Origin: Rhizobium leucaenae USDA 9039
GTDB lineage: Bacteria > Pseudomonadota > Alphaproteobacteria > Rhizobiales > Rhizobiaceae
Direction of reading: 5' to 3'
Length of the DNA stretch: 64,000 bases
NCBI RefSeq assembly: GCF_000426285.1
Contig: NZ_AUFB01000001.1
Span: forward strand, 372,001 to 436,000
Positions within the stretch are counted from its first letter, which is position 1; the number at the start of each line of letters is the position of its first letter. Shown piece after piece: positions 29,000 through 31,544 of the stretch. The translations under genes and the position numbers were made by a program. Below the pieces are notes generated by a model that had not been told where the DNA came from, searched no databases, and worked only from the letters and a program-made list of their open reading frames with translations.

Positions 29000-29263
29000 T
29001 CAAGTATGGGGTAGGACGAGCAGATTCTCCCTGCCATTCCTCATCGCGATCCGAGCTTTCTCGCGAACGAGCCCTCCGAGGTCTATGTCGGGGTCACGTT
29101 CGGGGTCCAGACCATCCCAGTCGAGTGCCACCTGCAGCAACGCCATGTTCGTCAGATGGACAAGGTTGCGAAGCTGTAGCGCTTCGGCTGCCTCCTTCGC
29201 CGAGGAGATCAGCCTAAACATTCTAACAAATTCACGCACTCTCAGACTATCGTCGTCGGGCAT
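29000..29263 (-). CDS. cinS: CinS-like small regulator downstream of cinI
   Basis: An 87-residue soluble helical protein (MPDDDSLRVREFVRMFRLIS, then LVHLTNMALLQVALDWDG). It lies 36 bp downstream of cinI on the same strand, has GGAGG 5 nt before its ATG, and occupies the place and size of CinS. In R. leguminosarum CinS is made together with CinI and acts as an antirepressor by binding the regulator PraR, which links cell density to downstream quorum systems. The name rests on position and size; I did not align it. Confidence 0.7.
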   Translation of the reverse strand: MPDDDSLRVREFVRMFRLISSAKEAAEALQLRNLVHLTNMALLQVALDWDGLDPERDPDIDLGGLVREKARIAMRNGRENLLVLPHT

Positions 29264-29299
29264 GAGCGCCTCCTATTCGAAACACGAAGGTCACGTTTC

Positions 29300-29965
29300 T
29301 CATGCCGCGATGTCCAACAGCCGGGTCGTAACGGATCGCATTGGCTGGGGACGGACATAGAGCGGAGCCGAGACTTTGAGCATGCGCCGCATATTCGCAA
29401 GGACGCGCGGCGAGACCTCGAACGCACCACAGCAAACAGGATATCTCCCGTATCCGTCGCTGCGGCCAAGTTCATCGACTTCGGCGCCTGCCCGCTTGTA
29501 CACCCTCTTGAGATAGGGTTCGTAGTTTGAAATCATCGTGTGGATGCCGTGATCCAGGGCACATTCGCAAAGCGCGAGCAACAACAGACTGAACGCCCGG
29601 CCGGCATCGATGTCGGGAAAATCGTTCGCGATGGCAGCTTCGTCGATGCACATGCGCGTTCCTTCCCAAATCCCCGGGGCAACGAGATCGGTTGCAGCCG
29701 GAAACGTGTCTCTGAAGACGTCATAGAGAAGCGTCGGCCCTGTCGTCGGCATGAGCCGTATCCCGCCGTAGAACCGGATACGGCGTTCGTCGCACCAGAC
29801 GAGATAGGCCGGGCCGAGAGCATCATAGCTATCGCGTTCGTAGGGGCCGACGACGGTTACGTCCCAGCCGAGCGTATCAGCAAAGATTTTCTTACGAAGG
29901 CGGAACATCTGGTCGAGGATGTTCGCATATTTATGATATTCATGTGCCTGAATAACTATGAACAT
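29300..29965 (-). CDS. cinI: N-acyl-homoserine lactone synthase CinI
   Basis: A 221-residue LuxI-family synthase, making acyl-homoserine lactone from SAM and acyl-ACP. All canonical LuxI positions are present in register: R24, F28, W34, D45, D48, R70, F84, E101 and R104. The N terminus (MFIVIQAHEYHKYANILDQM) and C-terminal half (ALCECALDHGIHTMISNYEP) match rhizobial CinI, which makes the long-chain 3-hydroxy-C14:1 lactone. The ATG at 29965 follows GGAGG at 5 nt; the frame upstream to 30016 is not coding. cinR lies 78 bp upstream and cinS 36 bp downstream. A C/G-rich palindrome 75 bp upstream is the likely control site. Confidence 0.94.
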   Translation of the reverse strand: MFIVIQAHEYHKYANILDQMFRLRKKIFADTLGWDVTVVGPYERDSYDALGPAYLVWCDERRIRFYGGIRLMPTTGPTLLYDVFRDTFPAATDLVAPGIWEGTRMCIDEAAIANDFPDIDAGRAFSLLLLALCECALDHGIHTMISNYEPYLKRVYKRAGAEVDELGRSDGYGRYPVCCGAFEVSPRVLANMRRMLKVSAPLYVRPQPMRSVTTRLLDIAA

Positions 29966-30039
29966 TTTCGCCTCCAACAGTTGCTGTCGTAAGGCAAGAA
30001 TGGGCCGGAAAACCATAGTGGGAAATCCCGCAAATGGAG

Positions 30040-30055
30040 CCCCTCATTTGAGGGG
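30040..30055. promoter_or_regulatory. Palindrome upstream of cinI, over the cinR stop
   Basis: CCCCTCATTTGAGGGG has perfect 7-bp arms (CCCCTCA/TGAGGGG). It includes the cinR stop codon and lies about 75 bp before the cinI start, the usual distance for a LuxR-type box overlapping or adjoining the -35. Similar palindromes flank the cinR promoter. Confidence 0.6.
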
Positions 30056-30790
30056 ATTTGTCAGGGGAGTGATGATGCGAAGCTGGACTGCTTTGGTCGT
30101 GGCTGCCGAGAGTGTGGCACAGCCCAGCTTGAACCGTGCCGTCTTTAGATAATCGCGCGTCGTATGTTCGGAAATGTCGAGGATCAGCGCGATGTCTTTG
30201 TAGTCTTTGCCAAGCGCTGTCCAATGCAGACACTCGATTTCCCTTGGGCTCAAGGATGGCACCGGGTCATGTTCGCCATAGAGTTCCTGCACTGCTTTGC
30301 CGTGGATGAGATGCGCCAGTTCCGTCCATTCCTCTCGGCAACTGGCGACCAATTCTTGCCACCTATCAGGCGGCAAACCCGAATTGATCGAGAGCAATGA
30401 CCGCCGCCTGGCCTTGTCGGCCACCGGAATAGAGTAGCCGTTGCCGCCGAGGCCATGCTTCTGCGCGTCGACTAACAGTGCGTAAGCCTCCGGCGTCGGC
30501 TCCACCTCGCTCCAGTCGAACGGAAGCTGACGCAGAAAGCCCTCCCTCACAACGGGATCAATCTTGACGTAACCGTTGAGAAGATATCGGGAGACCCAGG
30601 AATCGGGATAGGTGGTACGAACAAACGGCGCGTCGATCGTATCCATGATGGTCTGGGCAAGATGGTAAGTCACGTAATCGACGTGATATGCCGCCTGCAG
30701 AGATCGAATGGCAGTATCGACATTAGGCGCCGCTTTGATCTCATTGAAAGCGTGCTCAAACCTTGGGTTGTCGGACGTTCCCCGCATCAT
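30044..30790 (-). CDS. cinR: LuxR-family quorum-sensing regulator CinR
   Basis: A 248-residue LuxR-type regulator. The N-terminal autoinducer-binding domain (residues about 20-165) includes [10 protein letters not shown], the region [21 protein letters not shown] with the conserved Trp/Tyr/Asp positions, and the C-terminal helix-turn-helix is [39 protein letters not shown]. It lies directly upstream of cinI on the same strand and should activate it on binding the lactone. Two related palindromes lie 59 and 103 bp upstream of its start. Confidence 0.93.
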
Positions 30791-30848
30791 GCGTCACCCC
30801 AGCTTCATTACCATCTTACCGCGAGATTGGTTCCACAAACAAGAGCAT

Positions 30849-30864
30849 CCCCACATATGAGGGG
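30849..30864. promoter_or_regulatory. Near-palindrome upstream of cinR, similar to the cinI box
   Basis: CCCCACATATGAGGGG differs from a perfect palindrome at one pair and shares the CCCC...GAGGGG frame of the cinI box. It lies 59 bp before the cinR start. Confidence 0.5.
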
Positions 30865-30892
30865 AATGACGTTAACGAAGGCAGTCGTATAT

Positions 30893-30909
30893 CCTCACGT
30901 TAGGTGAGG
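30893..30909. promoter_or_regulatory. Third C/G-rich inverted repeat near cinR
   Basis: CCTCAC (30893-30898) and GTGAGG (30904-30909) flank a 5-bp centre. It lies between cinR and the divergent small gene at 30913, and resembles half-sites of the other two boxes. Confidence 0.4.
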
Positions 30910-30912
30910 GAG

Positions 30913-31137
30913 ATGGGCCAAAGCGAGATGGGCCAAGTGGACGAAGCCGAGGAGGCGGTGAGCCAAGCTGCGATCGGATTGAAAACGAGCTGGCACGATA
31001 TGGCCGGCTCAGAAGCGTTGATACGAGCTCTGATCGCCGAACGAAGCCAACGGACCAGCGAAGCGCTATTTTGGATTCGGGTCTATCGAGCTCTATCCCC
31101 CGAGACGATCGACCCAATCCCTTCTTTTTTCCGATAG
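30913..31137 (+). CDS. Small hypothetical protein divergent from cinR
   Basis: A 74-residue soluble protein (GLKTSWHDMAGSEALIRALI, ERSQRTSEALFWIRVYRALS) with helical, protein-like composition. Starts at 30904 (GTG), 30913 (ATG) and 30928 (ATG) are possible; GAGGGAG is immediately before 30913 so the best start is uncertain. No family recognised. Its position next to the quorum-sensing palindromes suggests it could be cell-density controlled; not shown. Confidence 0.5.
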   Translation: MGQSEMGQVDEAEEAVSQAAIGLKTSWHDMAGSEALIRALIAERSQRTSEALFWIRVYRALSPETIDPIPSFFR

Positions 31138-31544
31138 AACGTTGTTGCCGCTGGGTTTGCCGATTGGCTCGCTGCCTTGGCACCTGGGGCGACCTCCAGC
31201 GGACGCCCTAAGCTTGCGGCCATTCCCCTCACCTCGAAGATTGCTTTAGCAGCATCTGGACGCTGAGCCGCCGCCGCGTGGTTCAGGATTAGCAAAAAGC
31301 TGCCGAATTCTCCGCGATTTCTCCCCACACGAAGCAAAGCGTCACAAATCATGTGATCTTGTTAGTTTAGGCTGTTATGAATTTTGATGGGATGCTATGG
31401 CGCTTCTATAAGTTTTCGGGGGTTTTCTGCCATCTATGCATCCGGCCACGACCGTATAGCCACCCTCCGGTGCAATCGGATTGACATCCTGACAAATATT
31501 GAACTGATCGCAGTCGCTCACAATGGCAAAGGGAGAGAGCTTGA
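31138..31544. other. Region upstream of the aldolase gene
   Basis: 407 bp. A minus-strand frame (31083-31352) is possible but overlaps the divergent small gene and lacks a ribosome site. The notable element is ATCATGTGAT at 31348-31357, repeated upstream of the DeoR gene. Otherwise nothing clear. Confidence 0.4.
31348..31357. promoter_or_regulatory. ATCATGTGAT element upstream of the aldolase gene
   Basis: The exact 10-mer ATCATGTGAT also occurs at 32979-32988 upstream of the DeoR-family gene. In both places a GTTA follows within about 10 bp. Possible shared operator for the DeoR regulator. Confidence 0.4.

Follow-up and report, generated by a model that had tools for sequence, protein, structure and literature searches.

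Two palindromes on either side of cinR, together with a half-site nearer to cinI, are probably operators of CinR, through which this regulator would switch on both the synthase gene cinI and a small gene divergent from cinR; we put the probability of this reading, which derives from comparison of related loci and genomes, at about 0.78. The elements lie in a stretch of 64,000 nucleotides from Rhizobium leucaenae USDA 9039 (contig NZ_AUFB01000001.1, positions 372,001 to 436,000; the whole stretch is called the window below, and coordinates are those of the window). The comparison yields an explicit predicted CinR operator, a tandem arrangement with 14-bp spacing at cinI and a correspondence between the recognition helix of CinR and a base of the operator.

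The window encodes on its minus strand an AHL synthase, cinI (29300..29965; Pfam Autoind_synth, E = 2.5e-29; aligned start MFIVIQAHEY), and a LuxR-type regulator, cinR (30044..30790; Autoind_bind PF03472, 8.8e-27; GerE PF00196, 1.1e-10), in which W65, Y69, D78, P79, W93 and G118, which we take to be AHL ligand-pocket residues, are invariant in an 11-row alignment. CinR has 93-95% identity to its counterparts at three named Rhizobium loci; for forty others the value is 74-79%, R. johnstonii 3841 (L086) standing at 78%. In the window cinI lies downstream of cinR, and we infer that the cinR-cinI pair is orthologous to R. leguminosarum cinRI. The cinRI loci of R. leguminosarum/johnstonii 3841 and R. 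etli share with the window the gene order, the two boxes described below and the divergent small gene. They differ from it in that the window group lies, where complete, on replicons of 1.8-2.8 Mb (CinR at 95-96% identity occurs on five such complete replicons: NXC24, CB3060, CB3171, CB3090 and R. jaguaris), that box 1 of the window runs over the cinR stop codon, and that no BLAST match to canonical CinS was obtained for the ORF following cinI. This ORF (87 aa, 29000..29263, minus strand) is conserved both within the window group and in T136/T1473; BLAST against canonical CinS produced no alignment, and hhalign gave a weak one (E 0.038 over 29 ungapped columns, probability 1.35%), so that the ORF is possibly a very divergent CinS. 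CinR relatives at 51-62% identity are common on plasmids.

Box 1, CCCCTCATTTGAGGGG (30040..30055, minus strand; CCCCTCAAATGAGGGG on the cinI strand), is the candidate distal CinR-type operator of cinI, and box 2, CCCCACATATGAGGGG (30849..30864, plus strand), a candidate CinR-type operator in the gap that separates cinR from the divergent small gene. The pattern CCCC-N8-GGGG occurs in the 64-kb window at these two places and no others, and exact CCCCWCATWTGAGGGG is likewise confined to boxes 1 and 2 in the 6.7-Mb genome, where allowing up to 2 mismatches adds one place, against two matches for the reversed control. The sequence-only reading had remarked that the palindromes do not look like standard lux boxes, and this holds, as CCCCnCATATGnGGGG bears no resemblance to the lux-box or tra-box consensus. 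LuxR-type operators of that kind are also even dyads, 16-20 bp long, that precede an AHL synthase gene with its regulator gene alongside, whereas here the half-site is CCCCnCAT and a second half-site follows at a 14-bp step.

Conservation was assessed in two overlapping samples. First, 80 named cin loci were retained of 113 matched, 43 of them with a CinR at least 74% identical; in this group CCCCnCA-N2-TGnGGGG stands between cinR and cinI in 43/43 loci, and upstream of cinR it is exact in 39/43 and has TCCC as its first arm in 4/43. Second, in a whole-genome sample of 80 relatives (24 with CinR at ≥74%, 56 without), the strict motif CCCCNCATNTGNGGGG marked the cin locus in every one of the 24 CinR≥74% genomes (cinI site 24/24, cinR site 23/24); away from cin it turned up 3 times in this group and 12 times in the other 56, with 0 for the reversed control. 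A shorter motif, CCCNCATNTGNGGG, searched in four genomes, returned the cin sites plus 0-1 further place in each (control, 2 matches in total). Judged by these comparisons, boxes 1 and 2 are real, conserved elements: the alignment across Rhizobium that had been proposed as a check, with non-conservation as the outcome speaking against the boxes, came out in favour of these two. The claim of three related palindromes around the cin promoters is thereby borne out for boxes 1 and 2 and fails for the third, which is not conserved and belongs to another family (see below).

An alignment of 45 regions upstream of cinI (44 unique) displayed the distal palindrome followed by a second element with the consensus cccAT.TGaGGGaATTtcC. 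In the window the latter corresponds to box 1' (30026..30041, minus strand), a proximal half-site with its core CCATTTGCGGG at 30037-30027, 14 bp from the centre of box 1. Measured from the distal centre, the right half-site nTGnGGG is 14 bp away in 31/43 loci, 28 bp away in 8 and present at both distances in 3; these are the 42/43 loci counted by script, and in the 43rd, L080, it lies at 14 bp by alignment. At offsets of 8-39 other than 14 and 28, the half-site was absent from all 42 loci scored, and the 11 loci with a 28-bp half-site carry a weaker unit in between. At the cinI promoter of T136/T1473 the matches fall at 741, 755 and 769, which are again 14-bp steps with altered letters; 14-bp steps were also seen by eye in L202. 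As far as this comparison goes, the 14-bp tandem half-site at cinI is a new point. With the inferred cinI -10 element CATTCT (29997..30002, minus strand), which is present in most rows of the alignment, the centres of boxes 1 and 1' (30047.5 and 30033.5) would lie at about -57.5 and -43.5 from the inferred start of cinI, so that, given this inferred start, the full dyad sits at about -57.5 and only the half-site at -43.5, versus a dyad near -43 for LuxR-type regulators. A promoter scan based on the E. coli consensus did not report the proposed sigma70-like elements, which are poor matches to that consensus.

The cinR stop codon (TGA, 30046-30044, minus strand) falls inside box 1, as had been noticed from the letters, together with the suggestion that this overlap links the 3' end of cinR to the control of cinI. 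The overlap is real, and as a needed link it does not hold up: it occurs in 3/43 close loci (L075-L077), and in the other 40 the centre of the box is found 12-424 bp past the cinR stop (424 bp in L080), which argues for a compact arrangement rather than a requirement. Among more distant cinRI pairs (CinR 53-63%), a box in the gap between the two genes is again found in many, and a related box covers the regulator's stop codon in 12/37. The boxes over the regulator stop in L120-L122, L126, L129, L132, L139, L141, L143, L144, L146 and L152 are of the ACCC...GGGT type, and the recognition helix carries Ala, Ser or Gly there.

Box 2 lies between two divergent promoters that we propose from the sequence. 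Toward the small gene, AATGAC (30865-30870) and TATATC (30888-30893) separated by 17 bp would form a promoter at 30865..30893 (plus strand) that places the centre of box 2 at about -43.5; toward cinR, TTGTTT and TAAGAT separated by 18 bp would form one at 30813..30842 (minus strand), with the centre of box 2 at about -50. The phasing was scored in 57 loci, which include three repeat sequences (L199, L200 and L201 equal L145, L140 and L154). On the small-gene side, TGAC lies at +11 from the box 2 centre in 53/57 loci and at +10 in 4. On the cinR side, the first TTG lies at 14 in 40/57, at 15 in 11, at 16 in 1 and at 17 in 5, and because this distance is fairly constant (14-17), box 2 may adjust cinR too.

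We then compared the occurrence of the upstream box with that of the small gene in the 79 loci whose upstream sequence was long enough (L130 excluded), calling a box at 9 of 10 positions. Both were present in 45 loci, the box alone in 0, the gene alone in 3 and neither in 31 (Fisher p 7e-19, a value exaggerated by the relatedness of the loci); leaving out the CinR≥74% group gave 2, 0, 3 and 31, respectively (p 0.016). The three loci with the gene alone, L140, L145 and L154, have a palindrome of their own clade at the upstream site, centred on ACATATGTA. On a contrast tree of 82 proteins (L133 excluded), three independent contrasts were available for the small gene versus the upstream box, of which 2.7 on average went the same way with the strict box and never any the opposite way; when the clade's own box is counted, 3/3 went the same way (p 0.25). 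The placement and co-occurrence of box 2 point to this box, rather than to box 3, as the one positioned to control the small gene, and the close association of this box with a conserved small gene is, by the same comparison, a new point.

A different view of box 2, which we consider rather unlikely, is that it serves mainly the autoregulation of cinR, be it positive or negative, with the small gene as a bystander. Autoregulation is common among luxR-type genes, box 2 is situated some 50 bp upstream of the inferred cinR start, and the TTG on that side keeps to 14-17 bp in 57/57 loci; yet the 31/31 loci without the small gene lack an upstream box at the threshold of at least 9 of 10, four of them (L118, L120, L128 and L147) reaching 8 of 10. 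Moreover, the phasing is tighter toward the small gene than toward cinR (53/57 versus 40/57 at one position), and T136/T1473 (CinR 85%) are without both partners, as neither a tblastn match to the small gene nor an upstream box (best 6 of 10) was detected in them. These two loci, L156/L161 on plasmids of Rhizobium sp., have a different gene annotated upstream of cinR and represent a natural variant of the cin locus.

The small gene itself (30913..31137, plus strand, beside cinR) encodes 69 or 74 aa depending on which of two ATGs is used (30913 or 30928, the latter being conserved). Small proteins of 61-74 aa sharing a core that resembles DMAGSEALIRALVAERNGD...ALFW are specified by a gene divergent from cinR in 43/43 CinR≥74% loci and also in L124, L138, L140, L145 and L154, and tblastn found no match in 32/37 more distant loci. 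A profile search of the 80 relatives detected the gene, in single copy and beside cinR, in 24 genomes, exactly those with CinR at ≥74%, and found it absent from the remaining 56. When the search was extended to 297 family-wide genomes, with at most 20 candidates scored per genome, 10 genomes gave a match, the absences in this set being less firm than those among the 80 relatives, where every candidate was scored. Two of the ten were already known (G000 and G016), seven lie beside cinR-cinI and one lies apart. This tenth match (E 3e-4, within a 459-aa frame) was discarded as spurious, having no cinR-cinI nearby and not being among the known genomes. That the divergent small gene is real, as the sequence-only reading assumed, is thus confirmed by its recurrence beside cinR in relatives. 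Its dN/dS, computed by a counting method, was below 0.3 in ten pairs, and by this measure the gene is under purifying selection.

Matches of the small protein to known families were unconvincing (the lowest E-values were 0.057 for Pfam, 0.01 for NCBIfam, well short of its cut-off, and 0.017 for PHROGs). Homology to CinS, or to the 87-aa ORF that follows cinI, was considered and rejected, hhalign giving E 0.22 and 0.3, respectively. The AlphaFold2 model is a two-helix hairpin with a mean pLDDT of 86.6, for which Foldseek returned 33 hits, the best at E 3.9, and a sequence search of the PDB gave a best E of 0.31.

As binders of the palindromes, the earlier reading had named CinR, PraR or another regulator. 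CinR is likely the protein that binds boxes 1 and 2, a choice that comparison supports well. Across the 80 relatives, presence of the motif tracks presence of cinR. Furthermore, the letters of the boxes vary by clade with the recognition helix of CinR, a pattern that points to the regulator whose gene lies between the two boxes: where the CinR residue aligned to D213 is Asp, the outermost base of the box is C in 48/48 scored cases, where it is Ala or Ser the base is A in 16/16, and where it is Gly the base is C in 1 and A in 2. This scoring covered 83 rows, of which 16 without a clear box were left unscored (5 Arg, 4 Thr, 3 Asp, 3 Gly and 1 with an unreadable helix); 8-of-10 matches starting with ACCC were taken as A, and the base was set by hand for the window, L156 and L161. 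The pattern reduces to two independent contrasts between helix residue and base, one going the same way and one without difference. In the distant cinRI pairs the outermost base is A (ACCC...GGGT) where the helix has Ala or Ser, and 32/37 of these pairs have no match to the small gene, in both respects differing from the window.

The boxes within one locus also tend to vary jointly across clades, Rhizobium having CCCC-N8-GGGG. In the Thr clade both boxes are CGTACATATGTACG-like in L140, L154 and L200-L202, the upstream palindrome of L145/L199 is mixed (ACCCACATATGTACGA), and in L203 both boxes read CCCC-N10-GGGG, the one at cinI having been identified by eye. L199-L202, L140, L145 and L154 make up a cinRI clade with the small gene and two boxes whose half-site is CGTACAT-like, versus CCCCnCAT, and L203 (G142) is a distant cinRI locus with CinR at 46% and the small gene present.

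Published work on R. etli describes binding of CinR to the cinI promoter and also to the katG promoter (PMC13295618) and activation of cinI by CinR without ligand (PMC5977203). In G009, apparently R. etli CFN42, the strict motif has no match outside the cin locus, and since binding at katG is described, the real CinR sites may be more degenerate than our motif. Among the papers listed by our literature searches we met no printed CinR site, though one may exist; the letters of the boxes did not appear there as text, only the terms 'cin box' and 'cin-box'.

An improbable alternative binder of the boxes is the LuxR-type solo regulator ExpR. This view draws on S. meliloti, where, according to PMC5977203, ExpR binds before sinI and before sinR in the same layout; that paper also calls CinI, CinR and ExpR orthologues of SinI, SinR and ExpR. 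The sinRI/ExpR system, which we compare by this description alone, thus resembles the window in having sites before both synthase and regulator gene, and differs in that these sites are assigned to ExpR and not, as we propose here, to the cognate regulator. The same source counts more than 30 ExpR sites in S. meliloti, whereas the motif described here is almost confined to the cin locus; it is regular only where cinR is present, and its letters differ along with the CinR recognition helix.

That the boxes act as RNA hairpins, i.e. as weak terminators or attenuators rather than as protein-bound DNA, is very improbable: a terminator scan did pick out box 2 on the minus strand, with a 5-pair stem and a T-rich tail, but the stem is just 4-5 bp long, the loop core CAnnTG is conserved as well, terminator-like sites number 2 against a shuffle mean of 0.8, and box 2 precedes both inferred start points. 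Least probable of all are PraR operators, for although PraR regulates within the same network, its core is TTGCAA (both from PMC4149787), which is absent from 29000-31200 and unlike CCCC-N8-GGGG, leaving this part of the earlier suggestion unsupported.

In the working that we propose, a CinR dimer, either loaded with AHL or AHL-free as PMC5977203 reports for R. etli, would bind boxes 1, 1' and 2. At cinI, CinR would occupy the strong distal palindrome and the proximal half-site one 14-bp step nearer to the promoter, and the complex at the half-site could contact RNA polymerase from about -43, a class II geometry, to turn cinI on. CinR on box 2 would stand at an equal distance (about -43) from the small-gene promoter and could turn the small gene on in step with cinI, while possibly adjusting cinR in addition. 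The comparison shows that the boxes exist, that they are conserved and vary with cinR, and that box 2 accompanies the small gene; that CinR binds them, that the promoters lie as proposed and that the effect is activation and not repression is what we infer.

PMC5977203 places CinRI at the head of the quorum-sensing cascade of R. leguminosarum. We tentatively suggest that the cin system has an overlooked partner in the form of a helical protein of 60-74 aa, activated by CinR via box 2 and encoded in all CinR≥74% Rhizobium cin loci examined except T136/T1473, although the odds are somewhat against this suggestion as a whole. Because the protein is small, unique to the cin locus and never found without cinR in the searches of 80 and 297 genomes, a dedicated feedback partner or a second output is conceivable: it could bind CinR as an anti-activator or stabiliser, or serve, in addition to CinS, as another output protein. 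Such a conserved companion gene of cinR could explain regulation of or by CinR that is so far unaccounted for.

The third palindrome, box 3 (CCTCACGTTAGGTGAGG, 30893..30909, assigned to neither strand), had been taken for a relative of the other two and for a site that could serve the divergent small gene. It is a dyad of 17 bp and thus of odd length, differing in kind from boxes 1 and 2, and it was rejected as an operator and as a member of their family on the grounds that it is not conserved and that such dyads occur at chance level. The window contains 25 perfect 6-5-6 dyads, and the degenerate pattern of box 3 with one mismatch gave 2 matches versus a shuffle mean of 2.01. Among eight aligned close relatives (L005, L155, L158, L159, L160, L075, L076 and L077) it is intact in 0/8, the equivalent reading CCTTACGTTAGGTGAAGG in CB3090, CCTCACGTTAGGAGAGC in three others and more altered forms in the remaining four, so that the alignment that upheld boxes 1 and 2 speaks against box 3, and control of the small gene would by placement fall to box 2. 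By these comparisons box 3 is a chance match over the ribosome-binding region of the small gene and has no regulatory role.

A purine-rich run directly 5' of the small-gene ATG is the likely ribosome-binding region; the right arm of box 3 lies within it and adjoins a 15-bp tandem duplication of GAGATGGGCCAA, whose copies start at 30910 and 30925 (together spanning 30910-30939). The duplication gives rise to the two in-frame ATGs at 30913 and 30928, the conserved start being 30928, and among the eight aligned relatives it is apparently common to CB3090 only.
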